From positions 1 through 34,767 of the forward strand of contig PEWR01000020.1 in the NCBI GenBank assembly GCA_002779395.1: a DNA stretch of 34,767 nucleotides. The letters are read 5' to 3'. The position numbers and the translations under genes are program-made. A model generated the notes under the pieces. It did no database searches. It was not told the DNA's origin and worked only from the letters and a program-made list of their open reading frames with translations. Positions 9,909-32,950 of the stretch are shown in pieces. Numbering within the stretch: the stretch's first letter is position 1; the number at the start of each line of letters is the position of its first letter. Origin of the DNA: Ignavibacteriales bacterium CG07_land_8_20_14_0_80_59_12 (lineage in GTDB: Bacteria; Bacteroidota; Ignavibacteria; 0-14-0-80-59-12).

Positions 9909-9937
9909 AATGTAGCAATTATTCCGGCGAGCATCAA
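9909..9937 (-). promoter_or_regulatory. Candidate promoter of the DUF1844-nadK operon
   Basis: Minus-strand TTGATG (9937-9932) and TACATT (9914-9909) are 17 bases apart, each matching the sigma-70 consensus at four of six positions. Start of transcription would be near 9902, giving a leader of about 85 bases that contains the inverted repeat. Confidence 0.35.
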
Positions 9938-11166
9938 CCCGCCCGCTCCGGTGCGGCCGAGCAATGGAGGACTCTGTACCCTTCCTTCGCGCCAATTGCG
10001 AAGCCGATCCAGAGAAAGACTGAGAACATAGCATCGGTGACAATATTCGCAAGCTGCGCGCTCACGAGGTACACGAGGCCTGCTGCGAGCAGAAACGCCA
10101 TGAGCAGCCGGTCGTCATTCATGCCCGCCTTGTCGGCCTTCCGACCGGCTACGGCCTGGCGCGTCGCGCGCCAGGCAGCAAGGATCCGAAAGCATAGGAG
10201 CAGAAGGATCACCAGGAACAGTGCTGAGGCGATCCAGCCGCTCTCGATCGTCAGATGGATGAAGTCGTTGTGCCACCCGTGGACCCGCTGATCCGGGAGG
10301 TCGTGCCGCATTCCGGCAGTCACGAGGGAATCGAACGACATCGGTCCATATCCGAAGAGAGGAAGGTGTGCGATGAATCCGCGCGCCATGCCCCAGAGAA
10401 CGAGCCTTCCCGAGCTTCCCTCCTGCGTGAACATCGCTGCAAGACGCTCAATGAGATGGTGGGGAGCCAGAATCGCCGCGACGAAAATGACGGCACCGAA
10501 GATCAACAGGTATCGCGGTCTTCCTCTGAAGACCAGAAGCACACAGACACCAAGGAGGACCGCAAGAAGCGAAGCCCTCACGAAGGTGAGGAAGAGGGCC
10601 TCGATGAGAACCGCGATGGCGAGGATGAGTGCCGCTTTCTGCCACAACGGACGCGGTCTGAAGAGGGCCGCAACGCCGACGAGAATCCCCATCGAGACAA
10701 AGAGGGCGAGCGTGTAGTAACCGCTTGAGGCGGATGAGATGCGCTCTTCGAGGCCATATGCATATTTCCCAATCCCATACACTGCAGCGAGGGTGACCGA
10801 GAGGAGGAAGACGAATCCCAGCCTCCTGATCTGGTCCGGCCTGATGTCCATGCTGTAAACGACAAAGAAGAGAAAAACGTGCAGCCACAGCTTCTGGAAG
10901 TATGTGAGACTCGCAGAGGGAAATGGTGAGACGAGCGCTGAGACGCTTGTAGCGGCGAGGTACAGCAGGACTGCGATGAGAATTGGATCTCTCGGGAGGG
11001 CGATTCCTCTTCGTGCAATTCCGCCTGCAATGAAAAAGAGGACGAGGAGAACGGTGACCCCTTCGATGACGGCGATCGACCAGACCATGACGCCAGCAAG
11101 CGCGAACAAAGCACCGGTCATCAGGCTTCTCAGGAGAGGCGCCTCTGCGCGCCGCTCCGCGCCCAT
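9934..11166 (-). CDS. O-antigen ligase family membrane protein (WaaL/Wzy_C)
   Basis: Inner-membrane protein of about 10-12 hydrophobic helices, expected to join or polymerise undecaprenyl-linked glycan in the periplasm. The Wzy_C region is seen as a conserved arginine in LTFVRASLLAV, then RLVLWGMARGFIAHLPLFGYGP and the large periplasmic loop with GWHNDFIHLTIESG, whose His is important in WaaL ligases. I prefer the ATG at 11166, with AAAGG five bases upstream. A GTG at 11205 overlapping the upstream glycosyltransferase stop is possible and adds 13 residues. It follows an MsbA-type exporter and glycosyltransferases, so the product probably acts on lipopolysaccharide. Ligase versus polymerase cannot be told from sequence alone. 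Confidence 0.82.
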   Translation of the reverse strand: MGAERRAEAPLLRSLMTGALFALAGVMVWSIAVIEGVTVLLVLFFIAGGIARRGIALPRDPILIAVLLYLAATSVSALVSPFPSASLTYFQKLWLHVFLFFVVYSMDIRPDQIRRLGFVFLLSVTLAAVYGIGKYAYGLEERISSASSGYYTLALFVSMGILVGVAALFRPRPLWQKAALILAIAVLIEALFLTFVRASLLAVLLGVCVLLVFRGRPRYLLIFGAVIFVAAILAPHHLIERLAAMFTQEGSSGRLVLWGMARGFIAHLPLFGYGPMSFDSLVTAGMRHDLPDQRVHGWHNDFIHLTIESGWIASALFLVILLLLCFRILAAWRATRQAVAGRKADKAGMNDDRLLMAFLLAAGLVYLVSAQLANIVTDAMFSVFLWIGFAIGAKEGYRVLHCSAAPERAG

Positions 11167-11197
11167 CTTGGCCTTTATCACGGCACGGTTGCTGGCG

Positions 11198-12058
11198 TCA
11201 CACACGGGGCCCCACCAGCTTCTTGATTCTCTTGGTCAAGGGGTCCATGAAGATCTTGATCCGGCGAACCCATGTCGGTGGTTGGTCTTCGAGTCTGGGA
11301 TGGAAACTCCAATCGCAGGCCTCCACCCTTTCCCTCATGACGGCCGGGTGTGTGCCGTTGAAGGGGACGAGGTTCCCGAGATCGTCATACGCACGCATTT
11401 GTTCCGCGAACCTCAAGGTCTCTTCGTCGTTATGGTACAACTTGTGAAAGTCTTTCCTCTTGCGATCAAGGACTGACGGCGGACGAACCCAGCCGTAGTG
11501 GTAGACCTCGGCATCGATGTCCTTTGAGCGAATCGGCGATCCGTCCGTGTGCTTGAATCCCATGGCGTCGCCCCAGGAGACGATGCCTCGCCCATTCTTG
11601 ATGATCCTGACTTCCCGCAAGTACCATTTCCTGTAGTTGTCTTGAACATAGTCGTAGCTGCCGTAGAAATGCTTGTAGCGAAACCGCAGCCCTTCGGCAC
11701 GATCGTCATTCTGATACCTCTGAAGGGCCGAAAGGATCCTCGTATGGAAAGCCTCATGGACTACTTCGTCGGCCTGTACGTAGAAGCACCACCTCCCCCG
11801 GCACTCGGAGAGGGCGTGATTGGTCTCAACTGACAGCAGTCGGCCCCCTTCACGCAGACTCATGTCCCATCGGCGACGGATGATTCTCATGCGGCCGTCG
11901 TCGATCGAGCGTATGACCTCCAGTGTGTCATCATCGGAGTCGCCCAAGTTGACGATGAACTCATCGCACAGCGGCAAGACGGAGAGAATCGCCTCCATGA
12001 ACGGATAGGAATACAACACTCCGTTCCGCACGAGAGAGAAGCCCGATACGTTGATCAT
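11198..12058 (-). CDS. Glycosyltransferase, GT2-like
   Basis: A cytosolic or membrane-associated glycosyltransferase of the GT-A fold. The N-terminus VSGFSLVRNG resembles the nucleotide-binding opening of GT2 enzymes. FIVNLGDSDDDTLEVI follows, and CFYVQADEVVHE supplies the DxD-like acidic site. The middle region is rich in aromatic residues (KHFYGSYDYVQDNYRKWY). Sugar donor and acceptor cannot be named. It overlaps the stop of the MsbA-type gene by four bases (ATGA) and precedes the O-antigen ligase gene, which supports a role in cell-surface glycan assembly. A basic C-terminus (RRIKIFMDPLTKRIKKL) may contact the membrane. Confidence 0.8.
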   Translation of the reverse strand: MINVSGFSLVRNGVLYSYPFMEAILSVLPLCDEFIVNLGDSDDDTLEVIRSIDDGRMRIIRRRWDMSLREGGRLLSVETNHALSECRGRWCFYVQADEVVHEAFHTRILSALQRYQNDDRAEGLRFRYKHFYGSYDYVQDNYRKWYLREVRIIKNGRGIVSWGDAMGFKHTDGSPIRSKDIDAEVYHYGWVRPPSVLDRKRKDFHKLYHNDEETLRFAEQMRAYDDLGNLVPFNGTHPAVMRERVEACDWSFHPRLEDQPPTWVRRIKIFMDPLTKRIKKLVGPRV

Positions 12059-13881
12059 GCTCTCTCCATGAATTGCAGTTCGTGGAGTCGCCGGTAGAGC
12101 CCGTCCTGGTTCACAAGTTGTTCATGAGTGCCCCTGCTGACGATTCTTCCGTCGTCGAGCACAAGGATAAGGTCTGCATGTTGGATCGTGGACAGCCGGT
12201 GCGCAATGACGATTGAAGTCCTGCCTTGCATAAGGCTGTCGATTGCCTGCTGGACCAGGATTTCCGACTCGGAATCAAGGGCGGACGTTGCCTCGTCAAG
12301 GATGAGGATCGGGGGATTGCGCAGAACGGTCCGGGCAATCGAGACTCGCTGTCGCTCTCCCCCTGACAGCTTCATGCCTCTCTCGCCTATGACAGTGTCG
12401 TACCCATGGTCTAGATCCATGATGAAGTCATGCGCGTTTGCCGCTTTCGCGGCGGCCGCGATCGAATCGAACGGGCAATCCGGCAGGCCGTAGGCGATAT
12501 TGTTTCGCACCGTGTCGTTGAAGAGTATCGTTTCCTGCGTGACGACTCCGATGAGCGAGCGCAGTGAACGCAGCCGGAGCCGGCGTACATCGATGCCGTC
12601 GATCGTTATCGATCCGCCCGTCACATCGTAGAAACGCGGAACTAGGTCTGCAACGGTGGTCTTGCCCGCACCGCTCGGACCGACGAGAGCCACCAGGCTC
12701 CCTTTCTTGACCACACAGTCGATGTCCTTCAGTACTTCTCCTCCCGTATCGTACCGGAATGAGACGTTCTTGAAAACGATGCTGTCCTTAAACTCCGGTA
12801 TGTCGACTGCACCGGGTGAATCCACAATCTTCGACTTGATGTCAAGGATCCGAAAAACACGCTCCCCGGCGCCGGCTCCTTCCTTTGCACTGTTGAACAT
12901 TTGACCGAACAGTTTCACGGGCGGCATGAGCTGCAGGATTGCCGTAAGGTAGAGCAGGAACACGCCCGGAGTCATTTCGCTCTTCCCGCCGATAGTCTCA
13001 TAGCCAACGTAGTAGAGGATAACAGTCGCCGTGAGAACACCGAGGTATTCAGTGATCGGCGCGGCGATCGCTCTTCGCCGTGTGAGGCTCACCTGAAGAG
13101 CGTAGTACCTGTCATTCTCCCTGAGGAACCGTTCCACCTCATACCGCTCCGTGCCGAACGCCTTGACGACTCTCATTCCGGAGAGGATTTCATCCAGGAT
13201 CGTCGTGAGGTCGCCGATTTTCTCCTGCACCTTGATGCTTCGCCGCTTCAGGGAATCACCGATCTTGCTGAGCACCAGCGCCATCACGGGAAAGAGGACA
13301 AATATGCCGAGCGTGAGCTGCCAGTTGAATATTAAAAGAATGAGCGTGAAGGCGATGATTTGGGGGGGATCACGAAAGATGCTGTTGATAATGGCGATGA
13401 CAGAATCATTGATGACCCGTACATCGTTGAGAAGATGAGAGATCAGCACCCCCTTCCGCTCCTCGGTAAAAAAATCCAGCGAGAGATCATGAAGGTGCGC
13501 ATAGAAGTCGAATCGGATGTCTCGAACGATTCCCTGCTCCACAATGGACATGAAATAGGTCTGAAGGAACATGAAGACGTTCTTAAGAAGGAATGTGGCA
13601 AGAATAAGGAGACAAAGAATCTGCAAGAGAAACAATCGATCATGCCCGGCAATGATCACCGAGAACTTCTCGATGATAAGACCCTTGAGATCAAGCAGCC
13701 CTCGTGGTTGAGCCGGCAGGATCTTGGTAGGCGGTTGCTGGAAGAGCAGATCAACGAAGGGCATAACGAGCCCTATGGAGAGGACGCTGAACGCCACAAA
13801 AAGGAGCATAAACAGATTCGACCACACGAGGGGCTTCCAGTGCGGTCGGACGTACTTCAGAATCCGGAGATAGATTCTCAT
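12055..13881 (-). CDS. ABC exporter, lipid A/lipopolysaccharide flippase type (MsbA-like)
   Basis: A half-transporter of 608 residues with an N-terminal six-helix membrane domain and a C-terminal ATPase. The ATPase is complete: Walker A GPSGAGKTT, Q-loop VVTQETILFND, signature LSGGERQRVSIART, Walker B ILILDEATSALD and switch histidine IVIAHRLST. Family members flip lipid A-core or lipid-linked glycans across the inner membrane as homodimers. The neighbours (O-antigen ligase, GT2 and WaaE-like enzymes) favour lipopolysaccharide as cargo, though multidrug export cannot be excluded by sequence. The stop overlaps the next gene by ATGA. The ATG at 13881 has only a weak ribosome-binding site. Confidence 0.9.
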   Translation of the reverse strand: MRIYLRILKYVRPHWKPLVWSNLFMLLFVAFSVLSIGLVMPFVDLLFQQPPTKILPAQPRGLLDLKGLIIEKFSVIIAGHDRLFLLQILCLLILATFLLKNVFMFLQTYFMSIVEQGIVRDIRFDFYAHLHDLSLDFFTEERKGVLISHLLNDVRVINDSVIAIINSIFRDPPQIIAFTLILLIFNWQLTLGIFVLFPVMALVLSKIGDSLKRRSIKVQEKIGDLTTILDEILSGMRVVKAFGTERYEVERFLRENDRYYALQVSLTRRRAIAAPITEYLGVLTATVILYYVGYETIGGKSEMTPGVFLLYLTAILQLMPPVKLFGQMFNSAKEGAGAGERVFRILDIKSKIVDSPGAVDIPEFKDSIVFKNVSFRYDTGGEVLKDIDCVVKKGSLVALVGPSGAGKTTVADLVPRFYDVTGGSITIDGIDVRRLRLRSLRSLIGVVTQETILFNDTVRNNIAYGLPDCPFDSIAAAAKAANAHDFIMDLDHGYDTVIGERGMKLSGGERQRVSIARTVLRNPPILILDEATSALDSESEILVQQAIDSLMQGRTSIVIAHRLSTIQHADLILVLDDGRIVSRGTHEQLVNQDGLYRRLHELQFMERA

Positions 13882-13928
13882 GGCGCTTGAGACTTCAGAA
13901 ATGAGCTCCTGCTGCGGACCGTCTCATT

Positions 13929-14735
13929 TCAAACAGACGGATGCGGCGGTTCCGGACTCTTCTGCCGGTTTCGCTTGACATTCTGCAGCTCCCAGATCTT
14001 CATGTACGTCTGCGCATCCGTCATCGCGTGGATGAGCGAGACCATGAGACCGTGTACGCCTTCAACGAAGCCCCTCCGCAGGATATAGTGGTGGAGAAAC
14101 TCCCAGAGCGGGTGAAGGACAAGGGTGATCCCGGAGGGATGCTTGCGCATAGACTTCTCGGCGGCGCGAAGCGTCGAATACTCGTTGATCTTCCTCAGAG
14201 TCCCTTCGACGGTCGGATGCGTGAAGTGAAGGAGCTCGCCCCGAAGGCGCGATGTCCGTCCCTCGACGACGAAGCGCTCATGGACCTTGCGGCCCGTGAC
14301 GTGCGTCACAGATTTCCGGAACAAGCGGAGCTGGTAGTCCGGCGACCATCCGCACGTTCGGATAACGCGGTCGAGAAAGAAGTTGCGCCTCGGGATGAAA
14401 AAGCCGTCGGCCTTTGAGAAATCAAGCGAAGAGATCTCGGCCTTCAGCTCTGGGGAGACGCGTTCGTCCGCGTCAAGGCTCAGGACCCATTCGTGCGTGG
14501 CAAGGGAGAGACCGAAGGTCTTCTGTCGTGCGTACCCCTCCCAGGGATGTGAAACCACGTGCAGCGTGCAGCGGGATGCGACTTCTTTCGTCCTGTCGTT
14601 GCTTCCGGAATCAACAACGATGATTTCATCGACCCACGAAACGCTCTCGAGGCATTCGGCGATATTCGCCTCCTCATTCGCGGCGATGATGGTCACCGAA
14701 AGGGGAAAACGATCTGTGCCGGTCCCGTCCCCCAC
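13929..14735 (-). CDS. Glycosyltransferase family 2, WaaE/KdtX-like
   Basis: GT2 enzyme of the kind that adds a hexose to the lipopolysaccharide inner core. The N-terminal VTIIAANEEANIAECLESV and WVDEIIVVDSGSNDRT form the nucleotide-sugar site, and WVLSLDADERV holds the DxD metal site. HPWEGYARQKTFGLS and the late segment KINEYSTLRAAE resemble the WaaE subgroup. The start is a GTG at 14735, two bases after the leuS stop, without a clear Shine-Dalgarno, so translation may be coupled to leuS. The exact sugar added is not predictable. Confidence 0.85.
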   Translation of the reverse strand: MGDGTGTDRFPLSVTIIAANEEANIAECLESVSWVDEIIVVDSGSNDRTKEVASRCTLHVVSHPWEGYARQKTFGLSLATHEWVLSLDADERVSPELKAEISSLDFSKADGFFIPRRNFFLDRVIRTCGWSPDYQLRLFRKSVTHVTGRKVHERFVVEGRTSRLRGELLHFTHPTVEGTLRKINEYSTLRAAEKSMRKHPSGITLVLHPLWEFLHHYILRRGFVEGVHGLMVSLIHAMTDAQTYMKIWELQNVKRNRQKSPEPPHPSV

Positions 14736-18929: not shown

Positions 18930-20624
18930 TCAGGAGCCCTTCAGGACGACAACTGTGATATCATCTGCCTGCGGCATGCCGCTCGCGAATTCAGCAACAT
19001 GGCACTGGATACCGTCGGCGATTTCCGCCGCAGGCCGGCCCGAGAGACTGTTGATGAGTGAGATCAGCCGTTCCTCGCCGAACTCCTCTCCGCTCGACGC
19101 GACGGCCTCGGTCACACCGTCCGTGAAGAGAACGAGCGTGTCATCGTGCCCGAAGGGCGATTCCCCCATTTCATACACGCCATCGCGAAGCACACCGAGA
19201 ATGAGTCCGCCCGCTTCAAGCCGCTCAACGACTCCGTCCCTCCGCAGAATGATAGGTTGGTTGTGCCCGGCGTTCACGTAGCGCACGAAGCCGTAGCGGG
19301 TATCAATGATACCCCAGAAAAATGTGATGAACCGGTCAACCGGTGTGTTGTCGAAGATCATCTCGTTGATGCGCCGCGTCTCATGGACGAGATCGAGCTT
19401 CTCGTCGACAATCGTATGAACCGCTGCCTGAAGGTTCGCCATGAGAATGGCCCCCGGCACACCTTTGCCCGAGACGTCGGCGACGGCGACCACGAGATGA
19501 TCATCATCGATGCGAATGAGGTCGAAGTAGTCACCCCCGACCTGCTTCGATGAGATACAGCGTGCGCCAATATCGAGCCTTTCGAGGTGCGGGAACGTCG
19601 TGGGGAGGAGCTGTTCCTGAATTGAGTGGGCAATCCAGAGCTCCTCTTCAAGTCGCTTTCTCTCAACGGCTTCCTCAAAAAGGACCGCGTTCTCGAGCGC
19701 ACCCGCCGTGATGCTCACAAGTGCATAGAGGAATTCGAGATCGGATGCAGAGTACGATCCTTTCCTCACCGGCTTACCGAGGAGCACAAGCCCTTTCACA
19801 TGTTCCTCCTGAGGCATCGGGACGACAGCAGACGCCGACAGTTCGGTCAGGGCCCGGAGTGCGTCGTCACTCAGGCTTCCGGAGGGGAGTGTCTCGAGCG
19901 CGACAGCCCTGCCGAGCGTGGAGAGCTCCTTGAGGACCGTTCCGGCAGGGAGCGCCCCCCAGCGCCCGCCGAGATTGATCCATTGCTCCCGCTCGAAGAG
20001 AGCCACAGCGAACTGCTGCACACCGAGCTGACCCATGAGCCCGAAGCCGAAGAGCTTGACGATCTGCGGTCGCGACACGAGTCCAGCGAACTCTTTGCCC
20101 AGATCGAAGAGAGTGTTGAGCTGCTGCACCTTGAGTCCGAGAGCACGGTTCGCATCGCGAAGCTCGTCCACAAAGAGTCCCCGCTCGATTGCCGACGCTG
20201 CAATCTCCAGGAGGATGTTGAGCGCCTCCTGCTCATCCGGGGACAGCTCGTCGTTCATTGCGCGCCCGCCGAGACCAACATACCCCAGCGTGCAGTTCGC
20301 AGTGCGGAGCGGGAATATCTCCGACAGGCCAAGCTCCGCGAGCGTTGTGCCTTCGCCCGCGGTGTCTGCCTCCTCTCGGACGGGCATGCCGGGGTTCACG
20401 CCCGGCATACCCTTCGCGATGGCGATGACAAGCTTCCCATCCCTGCTCTCGCGAACGACCGCCCCGCGCCGGTACAGCAGTTTCCCCATGAGTGTGAGAA
20501 GGAGATCTGAGAGGATAAAGGAGAGATCGTCGGACTGGTTGATCGACTTAAGGAACCGGAGGATCGGTTTGAGGTCGAGGAGCCGCCGCAATGGAGCGGC
20601 GGAGATGTGTGTCCTCCGCGTCAT
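18930..20624 (-). CDS. Soluble GAF-PP2C (SpoIIE/RsbU-type) serine phosphatase
   Basis: A 564-residue cytosolic regulator. The N-terminal half contains two GAF-like segments (about 20-150 and 175-310), joined by a coiled-coil-like stretch LRDANRALGLKVQQLNTLFDLG. The C-terminal SpoIIE-type PP2C domain is complete: QVGGDYFDL, VADVSGKGVPGA, YVNAGHNQPI, VLFTDGVTEA and ADDITVVVL, which together bind the metal ions. Such enzymes remove phosphate from the STAS anti-anti-sigma partner. The ATG overlaps the kinase gene stop (ATGA). It is last in the operon and, unlike the first phosphatase, has no membrane segment, so it probably senses a cytosolic cue. Confidence 0.9.
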   Translation of the reverse strand: MTRRTHISAAPLRRLLDLKPILRFLKSINQSDDLSFILSDLLLTLMGKLLYRRGAVVRESRDGKLVIAIAKGMPGVNPGMPVREEADTAGEGTTLAELGLSEIFPLRTANCTLGYVGLGGRAMNDELSPDEQEALNILLEIAASAIERGLFVDELRDANRALGLKVQQLNTLFDLGKEFAGLVSRPQIVKLFGFGLMGQLGVQQFAVALFEREQWINLGGRWGALPAGTVLKELSTLGRAVALETLPSGSLSDDALRALTELSASAVVPMPQEEHVKGLVLLGKPVRKGSYSASDLEFLYALVSITAGALENAVLFEEAVERKRLEEELWIAHSIQEQLLPTTFPHLERLDIGARCISSKQVGGDYFDLIRIDDDHLVVAVADVSGKGVPGAILMANLQAAVHTIVDEKLDLVHETRRINEMIFDNTPVDRFITFFWGIIDTRYGFVRYVNAGHNQPIILRRDGVVERLEAGGLILGVLRDGVYEMGESPFGHDDTLVLFTDGVTEAVASSGEEFGEERLISLINSLSGRPAAEIADGIQCHVAEFASGMPQADDITVVVLKGS

Positions 20625-21034
20625 GCGACCTTGCGGCGCTTCCTCAACCGGATGACGTTCCGCACACCCGGACGAATGTCAAACTCGACCGCATCGAGGA
20701 GGCGCTCCATGAGAGGGATGCCGAGCCCGCCGCGGTGCTTCGGAAGCTCCTTGTAGTGCTGCGCGGCTGAGACCACCGGGTCAGGGTCGAACGCGTCGCC
20801 GTAGTCGGTGATCTCGGCGTACGCCTCGTCTGACTGCATGCTGAGGTGGATCTCGATCGGGTGTCCCGGCTGAGAGTGATACGCATGTTTGATGATGTTG
20901 GTAAGGGCCTCATCGAGCGCAAGGATGAACTCCGAGGCGGCTGCGCGGTCGAACCCCACGGAGTCAGCCCTCTCTTCGATGAGGCTCCGCACACGAGCAA
21001 GGTGCCTGAACTCGCTCGTGATATTGACGTCCAT
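20621..21034 (-). CDS. RsbW-like anti-sigma factor / serine kinase (HATPase_c_2)
   Basis: Small GHKL ATPase expected to phosphorylate its STAS partner and to bind an output protein. The N box is DEALTNIIKHAY, the G1 box ITDYGDAFDP and the G2 region GGLGIPLMERL. These fit the anti-sigma group, which lacks the histidine phospho-acceptor domain of sensor kinases. I chose the ATG at 21034, with AGAGG six bases upstream; a GTG at 21064 overlapping the STAS stop (GTGA) is a real alternative. Neighbours are STAS upstream and a phosphatase downstream, the standard partner-switching set. No sigma factor gene is beside it, so the output target is unknown. Confidence 0.9.
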   Translation of the reverse strand: MDVNITSEFRHLARVRSLIEERADSVGFDRAAASEFILALDEALTNIIKHAYHSQPGHPIEIHLSMQSDEAYAEITDYGDAFDPDPVVSAAQHYKELPKHRGGLGIPLMERLLDAVEFDIRPGVRNVIRLRKRRKVA

Positions 21035-21060
21035 TGTGGCCTCTCTGTCGGACGGCACGG

Positions 21061-21435
21061 TCACGCTCGACCCCTATCTGCCGAGTCCGCGTGCGGGAAC
21101 CGTTTGACGGCTTCTCCCGTCTCAGGAAAGAATTCGTAGAGGATGGGGAATCCGAGGAGGTCGAACACCGTGTAGACACGCGGCGTGAGACTTGAAAACT
21201 TGATGTCTCCTCCTCTTCCCCTTACCTCGTCAACGTAGGCCATGAAGACGCCGAGTCCGGCGCTGCTGATGTATTCAAGCTCGGCGAGTTCCATGACCAA
21301 GCGCACCCTGTCTTGGGAAATGAGCTCCTGCATTCTCTTTTCGAGCTCGGGAGCGGTGTGCGCATCGAGGTATCCCTTGACGCGAAGCACACTGACATCT
21401 CCCTGTTGACTGACCTTGATGCCAAACTCATCCAT
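21061..21435 (-). CDS. STAS-domain anti-anti-sigma factor (RsbV/SpoIIAA-like)
   Basis: A 124-residue STAS protein. The motif EYISSAGLGVFMAYVDEV contains the serine that is phosphorylated by RsbW-type kinases and restored by PP2C phosphatases; the dephosphorylated form sequesters the kinase. The N-terminal VSVLRVKGYLDAHTAPELEKRM is standard for the fold. It begins three bases after the stop of the membrane phosphatase and ends overlapping the kinase frame, so dosage is probably coupled. The C-terminal tail after the STAS core (GEAVKRFPHADSADRGRA) is unstructured. Confidence 0.92.
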   Translation of the reverse strand: MDEFGIKVSQQGDVSVLRVKGYLDAHTAPELEKRMQELISQDRVRLVMELAELEYISSAGLGVFMAYVDEVRGRGGDIKFSSLTPRVYTVFDLLGFPILYEFFPETGEAVKRFPHADSADRGRA

Positions 21436-21438
21436 ACG

Positions 21439-23571
21439 TCAATCTCCGATCTTCTCAATGGCGGTTGATACCTCCCCGCATCCGACGAAGCGGAGTACAA
21501 GAACGGTCATGTCGTCGATGTATCCCCCCTCGGGAGCGAACTGCCGCAACGACTGGAGAACGGCGGATGCTGTCGCTTCCGCGGACGAGTAGGACGTGCC
21601 GCGGAGAAGCTCCTCCATCCGCCGAATGCCGAACTCCTCTCCCCCGGGACGGCGGAGCTCAGTGACACCGTCAGTGAAGAACACGTACGTGTCTCCCGGC
21701 ACGCATGGGACCGTGACTTCTTCAAGAGAATCGGAAAAAACATCATCCGATGCAAGTCCGAGCCCCATCCCGCGTGGAACAAGGAGCTCGACGCGGCTGT
21801 CTCTCACGCGCGCGATCGGGCAATGGCCCGCCCGCGCGAAGCTCATCGTCCTGTCCGACGGATTGATGATGGCATGCACCATGGTAACAAACGAGTGCGA
21901 ATCGAGGCTTCCGCGGAGCGCCTCGTTCGCGTTGACAAGGAATTCACGGGGAGAGCGCGCGTTCTGCCCAACCGCCTGGAAAACCCCCTTTACCACTGCC
22001 ATGTAGAACGCGGCGGTGATCCCCTTCCCGGAGACGTCCCCTACAACGATGGAGAGGTTGCCGTGCGCATTGTGGACGATATCGTAGTAGTCGCCGCCGA
22101 CCTCCGTCGCAGGGATCGATGTCGCGAAGAGGTCAATCCCCGGAAGGCGCGGAAGCTCGCGAGGGAGCAGGCGCGTCTGCATCGACTGGGCGAGGAGCAG
22201 TTCGCGCTCCAGTCTCTCCTTCTCGATCATCTCCCGGAGGAGGCGGCTGTTCTCGAGCGCCATCGCGGCGCTATCGGCGAGTGCCGTCACGGTCGCGATG
22301 TCGTGCCGGTCGAACGACTCGCCCGCCGGCTTCGCCAGGTACAGCATGCCACGAGTCTCATTGTGGACACGCAGGGGGACGGCAAGAAAGGAGTTCTGCA
22401 CGGCGGCGAGCTTTGGCATGAATCGGCGAAGGCCCTTCGGCTCGCCGCGCAGGTTGCCGCCGCGAAGCGTAACGGAGCTCGATGCCAGCGCCTCGGCACG
22501 GAGTTCATCAAACGGAAGGCCCGATCCAGCATCGAGCGCTCCGTTCTCAGAGAGACGCTCCCAGCCGGCTTGCCCGTGACCCTCGACAACCGCCCCGGGA
22601 AGCTCAAGCCATGCGCCACGCGCACCTCCCATTTCCCGGGCGAGCTTCAGGACTGTTTGCGCAAGCTGATCCTTGTCAAGGATCTGTGTGCTGATGTTCC
22701 CGAAGTCCCTCAGCGAGGAAATCTGCGCGACACGCCGTTCGTAAATGTCGGAGGTCGGAAGATGAAAGAGCGTCCCTGCAAATGCAGCACTGAAGTAGAC
22801 GCAGCCAAGGACGACGAGCTGATACGTGAACGTGCCGAGCGGCGCGGAAAAGTAGGCGATCGACCGTGCAGGAAACGTCTCGCCCCCCAGGAGACCCGCG
22901 AGGCCGCCGAGAAAGGCGACCAGCATGAGCTCGTAACCGAGTGCGACCAGCTTCTCCTTTCGCCTGAGCTCGATGAGCCACGGGAGACGGAACGAGAGCA
23001 GCACAGTAATGACGATCGCCACGATGAAGAATGCCGACTGGAAGAAGCTTCCGGTCGCCGGCGCGCCGCCGACCCTGCTGAGCGCGTCGACGATAAGGAG
23101 GACAACGAGGACGTTCGCGAGGATCCGTGTTCCGCGCTTCCCGGTACCGATGAGAAGCCCGTACAGCGAAAGAAACACGAAGAGCGCGGCGACGCTCGTG
23201 ACCGTGCCTATGATGAGAGAGAGAAAGACGGCGTTATAGCTGTGCGGAACAAGCCAGCCGCTGACGGTTTGGAACTGTTCGGAGGGGAAAAGGAATACAC
23301 AAACGAGGACAATGACAAAAACGATTCCGGCGGCGATGACGAGCGTGAGAAGGAGGCGAAGCGGATCTTCCCTCCTTTCGGTCACCACATTCTGGAGCAG
23401 CGGAAAGAGGAGAAAGAGCGCACCGATGGAAAGGACGTCGACGACGAAGTTCGATTGCAAGAATGTCGGTGCGACGTTCTTCCGCGCGACGTCAATGAGA
23501 AGTACAAGGACGAAGAGGAATCCCGCTCCTCCGAGCGCGATGGCCCTGGTCCAAGATGGTCTGTCCTGCAC
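21439..23571 (-). CDS. Membrane-bound GAF-PP2C (SpoIIE/RsbU-type) serine phosphatase
   Basis: A 710-residue integral membrane regulator. About the first 270 residues form roughly eight hydrophobic helices of no family I recognise. A GAF-like domain follows (about 280-430), then a coiled-coil linker ENSRLLREMIEKERLERELLLAQ, then a full SpoIIE-type PP2C domain with EVGGDYYDI, VGDVSGKGITAA, FARAGHCPIA, FFTDGVTEL and DDMTVLVL. It would dephosphorylate the STAS protein in response to a membrane or GAF-sensed signal. The start is a GTG directly after the TAG stop of the TPR gene, so translation is likely coupled. The linker before PP2C resembles that of RsbU-like enzymes. Confidence 0.9.
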   Translation of the reverse strand: MQDRPSWTRAIALGGAGFLFVLVLLIDVARKNVAPTFLQSNFVVDVLSIGALFLLFPLLQNVVTERREDPLRLLLTLVIAAGIVFVIVLVCVFLFPSEQFQTVSGWLVPHSYNAVFLSLIIGTVTSVAALFVFLSLYGLLIGTGKRGTRILANVLVVLLIVDALSRVGGAPATGSFFQSAFFIVAIVITVLLSFRLPWLIELRRKEKLVALGYELMLVAFLGGLAGLLGGETFPARSIAYFSAPLGTFTYQLVVLGCVYFSAAFAGTLFHLPTSDIYERRVAQISSLRDFGNISTQILDKDQLAQTVLKLAREMGGARGAWLELPGAVVEGHGQAGWERLSENGALDAGSGLPFDELRAEALASSSVTLRGGNLRGEPKGLRRFMPKLAAVQNSFLAVPLRVHNETRGMLYLAKPAGESFDRHDIATVTALADSAAMALENSRLLREMIEKERLERELLLAQSMQTRLLPRELPRLPGIDLFATSIPATEVGGDYYDIVHNAHGNLSIVVGDVSGKGITAAFYMAVVKGVFQAVGQNARSPREFLVNANEALRGSLDSHSFVTMVHAIINPSDRTMSFARAGHCPIARVRDSRVELLVPRGMGLGLASDDVFSDSLEEVTVPCVPGDTYVFFTDGVTELRRPGGEEFGIRRMEELLRGTSYSSAEATASAVLQSLRQFAPEGGYIDDMTVLVLRFVGCGEVSTAIEKIGD

Positions 23572-24261
23572 CTACACCCCAAGCTCGCCGATGTAGAAAT
23601 CGACCCTCCGGGTCTCTTCAGCCTTCGGGTACTCTTGCTTTAGCTTCCTGAAGAGCTCAAGAGCTTTTTCCTTGTCGCCGGCCAGCTTGTAGTCTATCCC
23701 GGCCCGGAGAAGGTGGTTTGCCGCGTTCACCCCCTTTGGATCCTTCCCCGCCGCCTTGAGGAGAGCCTCCGCCGCCTCTTTGTAGTTCTTCTTCATCTCG
23801 TAACACCCAGCCTCTCCCGCCATGCGGGCTGCCTGCATCGGCTTGTCAGGGCCGCCGAAGTCCTCATAGAGCTTCAGCGCTTTGTCAGCTTCGCCAAGGT
23901 AGAGGTAGCAGTTCGCGGCATAGAGCCTCGCGAGGTCGCCCGAACGCGACCCGCCGTAGTTGTCGACAATCGCCTGCAGCCCCATGACATTCTGCTCGGG
24001 GATCCCGCTGAGCGCCAGCCCGTAGTCACCACGATCGTATATTGAAATGATCTGTCCGAGAGCTGTCGAGGCCCGCTGGTCGGCGTTCCGACGGTTGTTC
24101 GAATAGACGACAACGGCGAGGACCAGCACCGCGATGCCGGCGACGCCCCAGAGAACGTATCGCTTGTACTCCTCGTACCAGCCAACCACCTTGAAATACC
24201 AGGTGACAATTGTGTCTTCCTTCAGCTCACGCTTCGTGATCTTCTTCCTTGCCTTCAGCAT
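23572..24261 (-). CDS. Single-pass membrane protein with TPR-type repeats
   Basis: A 229-residue protein with a basic cytosolic tail (MLKARKKITKRELKEDT), one membrane helix (VLWGVAGIAVLVLAVVVY, about 38-55) and a helical region of TPR-like repeats. The best of these are SGDLARLYAANCYLYLGEADKALKLYEDF and LLRAGIDYKLAGDKEKALELFRKL. Topology and length resemble YfgM-like periplasmic TPR proteins. AAAGGG lies seven bases before the ATG. It is the first gene of the phosphatase/STAS/kinase operon, 40 bases after tRNA-Arg, and its TAG stop abuts the next start. Whether it takes part in signalling is unknown. Confidence 0.82.
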   Translation of the reverse strand: MLKARKKITKRELKEDTIVTWYFKVVGWYEEYKRYVLWGVAGIAVLVLAVVVYSNNRRNADQRASTALGQIISIYDRGDYGLALSGIPEQNVMGLQAIVDNYGGSRSGDLARLYAANCYLYLGEADKALKLYEDFGGPDKPMQAARMAGEAGCYEMKKNYKEAAEALLKAAGKDPKGVNAANHLLRAGIDYKLAGDKEKALELFRKLKQEYPKAEETRRVDFYIGELGV

Positions 24262-24300
24262 GGGGTCCCTTTCGGAGTGGAAACGTTCTCGAACTCTTCG

Positions 24301-24374
24301 TACGCCCGGCGCGATTCGAACGCGCGACCTACAGCTCCGGAGGCTGTCGCTCTATCCAGCTGAGCTACGGGCGC
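24301..24374 (-). tRNA. tRNA-Arg (anticodon CCG)
   Basis: Seventy-four bases fold as a cloverleaf. The acceptor GCGCCCG pairs with CGGGCGT (one G-U at the end), the D arm has AGCTCAGCTGGATAGAGC, and anticodon stem ACAGC/GCTGT encloses CTCCGGA with anticodon CCG. The T arm is GCGCGTTCGAATCGCGC. The discriminator is A; CCA is not encoded. It lies just upstream of the TPR gene on the same strand and may share its transcript. Confidence 0.96.
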
Positions 24375-24425: not shown

Positions 24426-24454
24426 AATATAGCAAACTCGGCGTACTAAGACAA
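24426..24454 (-). promoter_or_regulatory. Promoter of tRNA-Arg, possibly also of the TPR/phosphatase operon
   Basis: Minus-strand TTGTCT (24454-24449) and TATATT (24431-24426) are separated by 17 bases. The predicted start near 24419 leaves a 45-base leader before the tRNA. No terminator is evident between the tRNA and the TPR gene, so transcription may continue into the operon. Confidence 0.5.
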
Positions 24455-30919: not shown

Positions 30920-31984
30920 CTACGTCATCCGTCGTGCGTTGACCGCTGGTTCCTGGATGGCGCCTTGCGCCTGCGAGTAGACATCGCGCGCCTCGATATC
31001 GAGCATGCACTCAAAGGTCCCGATCGGGCATTTTGCCGATCCGTGGATGCTGCAGGGACGACAGCTCAGCCCTTTTGTCTCGACGACCCGGTCATGATCC
31101 CCGTATGGGTTGAAACCGAACGATGGGACGGTCGGGCCGAATATCGCAACCACCGGCGTCCGGACCGCAACCGCCATGTGCATCGGGGCCGTGTCGTTTG
31201 TCACGAGGAGCTTCGACCGGCGGACTAGTTCCGCCGACTGAAGGAGGCTCATTTTCCCGGCAGCGTCGTACACTTCCTTCATTCTTACTGACCGAACAAT
31301 GTCCGCACAAAGACCTGCGTCGGCTTCCCCTCCCACGAGGACAACCTCGTAGTCGTCATGGATGAAGAGCTGGATGAGTTGCACGAAGCGATCTTTCGGC
31401 CACCGCTTCGTGTTCCAGACCGATCCCGGAGCGATCGCTATGAGCCGGTCCGAATCGCTGACTTCGTGTTCGACGAGGAACCTGCGGACCTGCGCTCTGT
31501 CCTCCTCGTCCGGGTAAAGACTCGGGAGTTCTCGCCCGCACCAGGCAACGCCAAGTGCTGTGATCAGCTTGAGGTCGCGCTCGATCTCATGGACTGAGGT
31601 GTCGTACGTGATGAGTGAAGTGAAGAGGTAACGGCCTGCACTCTTGTCGAACCCGATCCTCCTTGAGATACCGCTGAGCCGCGCAAGAAGGGCGCTCCTG
31701 AACGACCGGTGAGGGACGAACACGACGTCGTATTTCTCGTGCTTGATCCGCCGCGCCATCGACATGATTCCCAGGAGTCCTGAGTCCACACCTCGCTTGT
31801 CAAAAACATGCACCTTCCGCACGTCCGGATGGTTCTCCAGAAGTCCGGAGGCACGCGGTGCGGCAAGAAAATCAACCGGCGATGAAGGGTAGAGCTTACG
31901 CAATACCTGGACGAGCGGCAGAGCGAGGACGACATCACCCACAAATGCCGTTTGAAGAACGAGGATCTTTCGCGGACCCGTCAT
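30920..31984 (-). CDS. Heptosyltransferase-type glycosyltransferase (GT9)
   Basis: GT9 enzyme of the WaaF/WaaC family, expected to transfer L-glycero-D-manno-heptose from ADP-heptose to the lipopolysaccharide inner core. The N-terminal ILVLQTAFVGDVVLALPL is the acceptor-side signature and IAIAPGSVWNTKRWPKDRF is a donor-binding loop. LLVTNDTAPMHMAVAVRTPVVAIFGPT is the classical GT9 motif. A short Cys-containing segment (CRPCSIHGSAKCPIGTFECM) is common in WaaF-like proteins. The gene starts 9 bases after the acyltransferase stop and runs into tsaC. Confidence 0.9.
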   Translation of the reverse strand: MTGPRKILVLQTAFVGDVVLALPLVQVLRKLYPSSPVDFLAAPRASGLLENHPDVRKVHVFDKRGVDSGLLGIMSMARRIKHEKYDVVFVPHRSFRSALLARLSGISRRIGFDKSAGRYLFTSLITYDTSVHEIERDLKLITALGVAWCGRELPSLYPDEEDRAQVRRFLVEHEVSDSDRLIAIAPGSVWNTKRWPKDRFVQLIQLFIHDDYEVVLVGGEADAGLCADIVRSVRMKEVYDAAGKMSLLQSAELVRRSKLLVTNDTAPMHMAVAVRTPVVAIFGPTVPSFGFNPYGDHDRVVETKGLSCRPCSIHGSAKCPIGTFECMLDIEARDVYSQAQGAIQEPAVNARRMT

Positions 31985-31993
31985 CTGTTTTGC

Positions 31994-32950
31994 TCAGTGT
32001 GGTTCCCCGGCGTAAACTGTTTGCGCTTTGTGCTTCCTCGTTTGAGTTCCCACAGGCGCATCGTTCGGCAGCACATGCTTCCAGCGTCGGTGCAGCCACA
32101 GCCACTGCTCCGGGTGGAGCCTGATCGCATGCTCGAGCATCTCCACGTGACGGCGCGTAAGCTGACGTATCCGTCCGTCTTGGTCGTCGGGGAGCCCGGA
32201 CTGGTCGACCTCCTCAAAATGAAACACGTAGTTGCCGTCCGGCTGGCGGACGGGTAGGCCAAAGAGGATCGGTGCGTCGGACCGAAGGCTCAAACGCGCC
32301 GGACCGTCGTGCGTCGAAGTCATCCGGCCCATGAACTCCGTATAGAGTCCGTCCTCCGGCCCGCTCTGATCCCCGAGGATTGCCACCAGCCCTCCCCGCC
32401 TCAGAACTGTCAATGCCCGTTTCGCCGCTTTTCCCGTCTGGACGAGACTGTTCCCGAGCCTGCAGCGCAACTTGTGTGTGAAGCGGTCGACGTATCGGTT
32501 GCGCTGCTCCTGGACGATGAGTGTGAGCCGCTGCGGGTAAGCATGTCCGAGCCCGAGCGCCATGTACTCCCAGTTCCCAAAATGAGCCGACAGAACTAGC
32601 GCGCCCCTCCCTCGTTCGAGAACTCTGTCAACAAGATCAAGGTTGTCGAAGACCATGACACGTTCGACTTCCTCTGCCGACAGCCTCCACATCCCCATGA
32701 ACTCGAACATCACGACGCCGAAGTTCTCATACGCCCCACGAGCGGTCGCGAGCACTTCCTTCGCGGACTTCTCCGGGTAAGCGCAACGGAGGTTGTCGAT
32801 CGTGGCCTTCCGGCGCATACGCACGAATGAAAACGCAAACCGTCCGGCGATCGCTCCAAGCCGCCGGACAAGCGCAAGGGGAAGGAGACCGAGGAGACGG
32901 CTCGCACCCCCGAATGCCACGTATTCTATGAAATCGCGCACGAAGACCAT
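31994..32950 (-). CDS. Lipid A-type late acyltransferase (LpxL/HtrB family)
   Basis: Membrane-associated lysophospholipid-type acyltransferase that adds a secondary acyl chain to lipid A. The catalytic HX4[DE]-type motif is SAHFGNWEYM. GDQSGPEDGLYTEFMGR is a second conserved block and LTRRHVEMLEHAIRLHPEQWLWLHRRWK the characteristic end. An N-terminal hydrophobic patch (LLGLLPLALVRRLGAIAGRFAF) anchors it at the inner membrane. At 318 residues the length is typical. Located between the GWxTD gene and a heptosyltransferase, it supports an inner-core/lipid A function for this operon. The Shine-Dalgarno before the ATG is weak. Confidence 0.9.
   Translation of the reverse strand: MVFVRDFIEYVAFGGASRLLGLLPLALVRRLGAIAGRFAFSFVRMRRKATIDNLRCAYPEKSAKEVLATARGAYENFGVVMFEFMGMWRLSAEEVERVMVFDNLDLVDRVLERGRGALVLSAHFGNWEYMALGLGHAYPQRLTLIVQEQRNRYVDRFTHKLRCRLGNSLVQTGKAAKRALTVLRRGGLVAILGDQSGPEDGLYTEFMGRMTSTHDGPARLSLRSDAPILFGLPVRQPDGNYVFHFEEVDQSGLPDDQDGRIRQLTRRHVEMLEHAIRLHPEQWLWLHRRWKHVLPNDAPVGTQTRKHKAQTVYAGEPH

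Follow-up and report, generated by a model that had tools for sequence, protein, structure and literature searches.

Partner switches for which no output has been identified keep turning up in bacteria, and an operon on a 34,767-nucleotide stretch of DNA from an Ignavibacteriales bacterium (PEWR01000020.1, positions 1 to 34,767, referred to as the window) adds another: five contiguous genes on the minus strand, running from 24261 to 18930, encode a TPR protein, a membrane phosphatase (PPm), a STAS protein, an RsbW-like kinase and a soluble phosphatase (PPs), and no sigma factor gene adjoins them within the window. We favour the reading, at a probability of roughly 0.55, that the operon encodes a complete two-input partner switch of the RsbU/V/W type acting through one STAS protein, with a sigma factor as its most likely target.

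A compact operon with the parts of a partner switch

The five genes had been described from the letters alone as an array with overlaps or gaps of a few bases, and the junctions bear this out (Table 1). The stop codon of the TPR gene abuts the GTG start of PPm (0 bp), a gap of 3 bp separates PPm from the STAS gene, and 4-bp overlaps join STAS to kinase and kinase to PPs. The TPR gene was recognised by the Pfam profiles TPR_6 (E=8e-10) and TPR_21. A tRNA-Arg(CCG) gene lies directly upstream of it, an arrangement repeated in 14 of 15 relatives, so that transcription of the operon may start from the promoter of the tRNA; the candidate found in the window reads TTGTCT-N17-TATATT, with a TG before the second hexamer. 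On the 3' side, about 210 bp lead to a gene for a NupC-type nucleoside transporter, with the LeuS gene next. Farther out, the operon is flanked at 9934-14735 and 30920-32950 by genes for lipid A acyltransferase, heptosyltransferase, glycosyltransferase, ABC transporter and O-antigen ligase, and similar flanks are found in families f2 and f4.

Table 1 Features of the operon and its upstream region in the window
Feature	Position	Strand	Basis
Promoter match, sigma-70-like, ahead of tRNA and operon	24426..24454	-	consensus match only
tRNA-Arg (CCG), 38 bp upstream of the TPR gene	24300..24374	-	ARAGORN
TPR protein with N-terminal TM helix, 229 aa, TPR_21/TPR_6	23572..24261	-	Pfam
PPm, 8-TM sensor + GAF + SpoIIE/PP2C phosphatase, 710 aa	21439..23571	-	Pfam, alignment, AlphaFold2
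8-TM sensor domain of PPm, residues 1-300	22672..23571	-	AlphaFold2 model
STAS switch protein, RsbV/SpoIIAA-like, 124 aa, predicted phosphosite Ser58	21061..21435	-	
RsbW/SpoIIAB-like serine kinase, 147 aa, intact N, G1 and G2 boxes	20621..21064	-	
PPs, soluble GAF + SpoIIE/PP2C phosphatase, 564 aa	18930..20624	-	

Conserved active sites and a membrane sensor without a described family

The predicted phosphosite of the STAS protein (Pfam STAS, E=3e-17) is in register with Ser58 of SpoIIAA and is a serine in 127 of 127 aligned rows. In the kinase (Pfam HATPase_c_2, E=8e-24), E52, N56 of the N box and G115 are found in 100% of 125 rows, D87 and G89 in 93-95%, and the group G112, G113 and G115 in 98-100%. 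The nearest solved structures are RsbW (best PDB match 6m36) and SpoIIAB for the kinase and SpoIIAA and RsbV for the STAS protein, and they include the RsbW-RsbV and SpoIIAB-SpoIIAA pairs. Both phosphatases match the SpoIIE profile (E=2e-41 for PPm and 9e-46 for PPs) and contain a GAF domain recognised by Pfam, that of PPs scoring below the curated cut-off; on the phosphatase side, the nearest solved structures are of the SpoIIE/RssB type. As predicted, all PP2C motifs are kept in both: the metal-binding aspartates are 100% conserved in PPm (D494, D497, D512, D634, D686 and D687; 129 rows) and in PPs (D365, D368, D383, D502, D554 and D555; 80 rows). Judged by sequence, the locus has the phosphorylatable serine, the GHKL boxes and the PP2C aspartates by which an RsbU/V/W-type module is recognised.

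The AlphaFold2 model of PPm residues 1-300 (mean pLDDT 94.4) contains eight predicted transmembrane helices, and its continuous, 57-residue exit helix (residues 243-299) leads to the GAF domain; W198, K207, P272 and T273 are invariant or nearly so. The first impression that this sensor comes from no recognised family stands, as none of the Pfam families was hit by two or more of 60 aligned members, no PDB fold was found (best E 0.12, TM-score ≤0.29) and PHROGs held no relatives. Searched by itself, the domain turned up in 153 of the phylum's 396 sampled genomes, and no full-length PPm was found on plasmids; the sensor is a phylum-wide membrane domain with neither a described family nor a solved fold. 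As modelled, the long exit helix would be compatible with the linker-driven (coiled-coil) dimerisation described for RsbU, RsbP and RsbZ (PMC12143880).

These parts, their intact active sites and their conserved linkage can be read directly from the DNA, and the two-input switch that they would form is well supported by the sequence. At rest, the kinase would phosphorylate Ser58 of the STAS protein and stay free to hold its target. An envelope signal perceived by the 8-TM sensor of PPm, or a cytosolic signal perceived by the GAF part of PPs, would activate the phosphatase domain of the same protein, probably by way of a helical linker that brings the PP2C domains together as a dimer; the dephosphorylated STAS protein would then bind the kinase, and the target would be released. 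Their linkage to this STAS protein suggests that it is the substrate of both phosphatases.

The operon is a widely conserved signalling unit

Relatives of PPm were searched in 396 genomes drawn from the phylum, and the neighbourhoods of ~100 genes were labelled by similarity. The search returned relatives in 284 genomes, many of the matches covering the phosphatase end alone, and the named relatives are Ignavibacteria, Rhodothermales, Pontibacter, Hymenobacter, Adhaeribacter, a Caldithrix and KSB1. Across 84 genomes of the class Ignavibacteria, PPm is followed by the STAS gene in 81, the kinase gene in 78 and PPs in 67, and is preceded by a TPR gene in 12, a MATE transporter gene in 12 and an ECF sigma factor gene in 36, proportions that describe this sample and not the phylum because the loci were picked mostly from the best PPm matches. 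The corresponding counts for 17 genomes of other classes are 16 for STAS, 16 for the kinase, two for PPs and zero for ECF. Since the order PPm-STAS-kinase recurs in more than 90% of about 100 independent loci, the operon is not a product of chance: it is a real, widely conserved bacterial signalling unit.

Whether the TPR gene and both phosphatases stay together, a question attached to the original prediction, receives a divided answer. The phosphatases do, PPs being linked at the frequency given above; the TPR gene joins them inconstantly, and its linkage in 12 of the 84 class genomes rules it out as an obligate partner. A MATE transporter gene lies between the TPR gene and PPm in many relatives. 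Family f18 (L072, L141 and L145) has PPm without a STAS or kinase gene beside it, and in two of these loci (L141 and L145) the gene that follows PPm instead encodes a 3-hydroxyacyl-CoA dehydrogenase.

Candidate targets in the genome of the window

Five proteins of this genome contain Sigma70 region 2, namely one primary sigma factor (regions 1.2, 2, 3 and 4), which is the only protein with region 3, and four ECF factors; one sigma-54 is encoded as well. No sigma-B/F-type (group-3) factor was found, an absence that is not absolute because the genome is 95% complete, and with this reservation a target of that type was ruled out here. Since none was found, the kinase would most likely sequester an ECF or the primary sigma factor. 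Linkage does not make a sigma target general, because the window's own family and all 17 loci of other classes lack a linked sigma gene. The same genome carries a second type of STAS gene between secDF and purA (L099:3389-7938) and a second RsbW-like kinase gene (L091:5440-5904) behind that of a 644-aa protein without a Pfam match.

The output could instead be something other than a sigma factor, with the free STAS protein or the free kinase acting on another protein, be it an enzyme or one that takes part in envelope assembly, along the lines of SypA, SiaC/SiaD and Bordetella Btr. We regard this as a real possibility: the window and most families show no linkage of the operon to a sigma gene, no factor of the sigma-B/F type was found in the genome, and in the window, as in families f2, f4, f14 and f20, the operon is surrounded by genes for lipid A acyltransferase, heptosyltransferase, MATE, glycosyltransferase and ABC transporter proteins. 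It is weakened by the lack of any single non-sigma neighbour that is constant across families, whereas an ECF sigma factor is the one regulatory neighbour found to approach constancy in any clade. No diguanylate cyclase, which would point to a c-di-GMP output of the SiaABCD kind, was recognised beside the operon among the Pfam-annotated neighbours of the window and selected loci.

An ECF sigma factor joined the operon in a sister clade

In the sister clade formed by families f12, f16 and f3, an ECF sigma gene lies directly upstream of the operon in 36 of 37 genomes, usually accompanied by the gene of a membrane protein, F42, with both upstream of PPm. The claim that the operon has no sigma factor thus holds for the window and fails as a general rule. 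A sigma factor or diguanylate cyclase as a constant neighbour elsewhere had been named as what would speak against the original prediction; an almost constant sigma factor was found, in the sister clade only, so that the objection applies in part, and the search for a cyclase gave the result stated above.

F42 is a predicted membrane anti-sigma protein. An N-terminal anti-sigma domain was assigned to it in f12 and in the window's genome on the strength of a match to the RsiW profile (E=0.006), and the model of the protein resembles RsiW (probability 0.98) and MucA in structure over ~65 residues, the rest being of low confidence; zf-HC2 was detected in 9 of 18 F42 members. The window's genome has its own ECF-F42 pair on contig C38, apart from the operon, and there the anti-sigma domain is kept, which weighs against a sigma target. 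In f3 and f16, F42 is without the domain (24 of the 36 ECF-linked genomes); in one f3 locus (L137) F42 is gone and the ECF gene remains, and in one f12 locus (L129) both are gone. The ECF gene and its promoter are kept in all 25 genomes whose F42 lacks the domain (24) or that have no F42 (one), and mean pairwise identity in this domain-loss clade is 70% for the ECF factor, 77% for STAS, 60% for the kinase and 55% for PPm. A tree built from PPm, STAS and kinase places the loss of the domain as a single event; the window locus forms a long branch in it, and its placement is not fixed. The operon of the sister clade took in an ECF sigma factor whose own inhibitor domain was later lost.

We looked for a substitute inhibitor. 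The three coding-strand frames of the 272-bp ECF-F42 gap of L050 contain no replacement anti-sigma ORF, which rules out a hidden one on that strand, and the other ECF-F42 gaps are ≤50 bp. A search of f3 genomes with the F42 profile found the linked, domain-less protein alone in most of them, and three (G062, G066 and G124) gave further weak matches to the anti-sigma domain elsewhere in the genome. In the kinase of the domain-loss clade only two residues are fixed for that clade, too few to show as the footprint of a new interface, which tells against a sigma target. In the f3 genomes, the ECF operon is situated between a STAS gene of the second type and secF.

The likely target in f12, f16 and f3 would be the ECF sigma factor encoded at the head of the operon. 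More specifically, and tentatively, we propose from these comparisons that in f3 and f16 the RsbW-type kinase may have replaced the membrane anti-sigma domain as inhibitor of the ECF factor, which would place this factor under a STAS/SpoIIE switch with a new 8-TM sensor and make the window the form without a linked sigma gene. If this is true, GHKL/STAS switches would extend to ECF sigma factors; the question of the output is narrowed to a testable pair, the kinase and an ECF factor whose gene and promoter persisted in 25 genomes after the anti-sigma domain had disappeared.

The ECF factor of the sister clade might also do no more than transcribe the operon from its promoter, GGAAC-N16/17-CGTCTAA, and, once the domain had been lost, be kept in check by its own abundance or by proteolysis rather than by the kinase. 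This motif directly precedes the ECF gene in nearly all linked loci, and the F42-PPm gap, which measures 124-261 bp with the domain (12 loci), is shorter in its absence (-4 to 105 bp, 23 loci), suggesting one transcript; the associated Mann-Whitney p=2e-6 overstates the evidence because the loci share a single loss event and are not independent. Yet an autoregulated ECF factor without an inhibitor would be expected to run away, and RsbW-like kinases are anti-sigma factors in the best-studied relatives; we hold this explanation to be rather less likely than not.

The same promoter motif stands ahead of several unlinked ECF genes, including the one in the window's genome. Over 2.38 Mb of loci it has 60 matches, compared with 13 in mononucleotide shuffles, and 38 of the 60 lie ahead of an ECF gene, an enrichment that arises partly by construction because the pattern was derived from the same upstream regions. 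The window contains no strict match, a further point against a sigma target. A looser pattern gave 39 matches in the window's genome against 24 in a reversed control, most of which are accordingly background, and an ECF regulon drawn from it was set aside; four of these matches end in CGTCTA, and one of the four, on C38, precedes the ECF gene.

Relation to known systems

The two-input switch proposed here has a close counterpart in the RsbU/RsbP-RsbV-RsbW system of Bacillus subtilis, in which two PP2C phosphatases with different sensors act on one STAS protein and the output is sigma-B. Shared parts are a STAS protein with a serine phosphosite, predicted for the window, a GHKL serine kinase and a pair of PP2C phosphatases that differ in their sensors; the systems differ in that sigma-B was found here in neither operon nor genome, and in that the membrane phosphatase has an 8-TM sensor, both phosphatases carry a GAF domain and the two share one operon. 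In the SiaABCD system of Pseudomonas aeruginosa, too, a membrane PP2C phosphatase acts on a STAS protein. Similarity to NF038263 is confined to the PP2C part (53 and 41 against a family cut-off of 700 bits), and no diguanylate cyclase was recognised among the annotated neighbours of the operon. That PPm and PPs serve different STAS proteins is improbable, for although the genome encodes four STAS domains and PPM phosphatases can be highly substrate-specific (PMC11418112), a 4-bp overlap ties the PPs gene to that of the kinase, PPs is linked in 67 of the 84 class genomes, and the other three STAS genes are on other contigs.

Precedents for the output point in both directions. The kinase of the RsbU-RsbV1-RsbW switch of Chlamydia trachomatis binds the primary sigma factor, sigma-66 (PMC4552016), a target that for the window is no more than a possibility; unlike that switch, the present one has a second, soluble phosphatase linked to it. 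As a counter-precedent, RbaW of Rhodobacter capsulatus bound none of the sigma factors tested, in a report that also cites SypA and Bordetella (PMC3999984). The RbaV-RbaW-RbaY system resembles ours in having no linked sigma gene and no established output target, and differs in its one, unlinked REC-type phosphatase, where the operon described here has two linked GAF-type phosphatases and the 8-TM sensor. Among ECF factors, a review names partner switching for EcfG only (PMC8103513); the EcfG-NepR-PhyR case uses a sigma-mimicking response regulator and NepR in place of a GHKL kinase and a STAS protein.

Two further arrangements came to light in the survey. In a Calditrichota locus (L279:5950-10673), genes for a different SpoIIE phosphatase, an RsbW-like kinase and a STAS protein precede mlaE, an ABC gene and mlaD, and L269 and L287 have a similar layout, with Pfam domains assigned for L279 only. 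In 34 of the 84 class genomes, the operon ends with a third phosphatase that combines PDZ, GAF and SpoIIE domains (L052:7053-9551 and equivalents).
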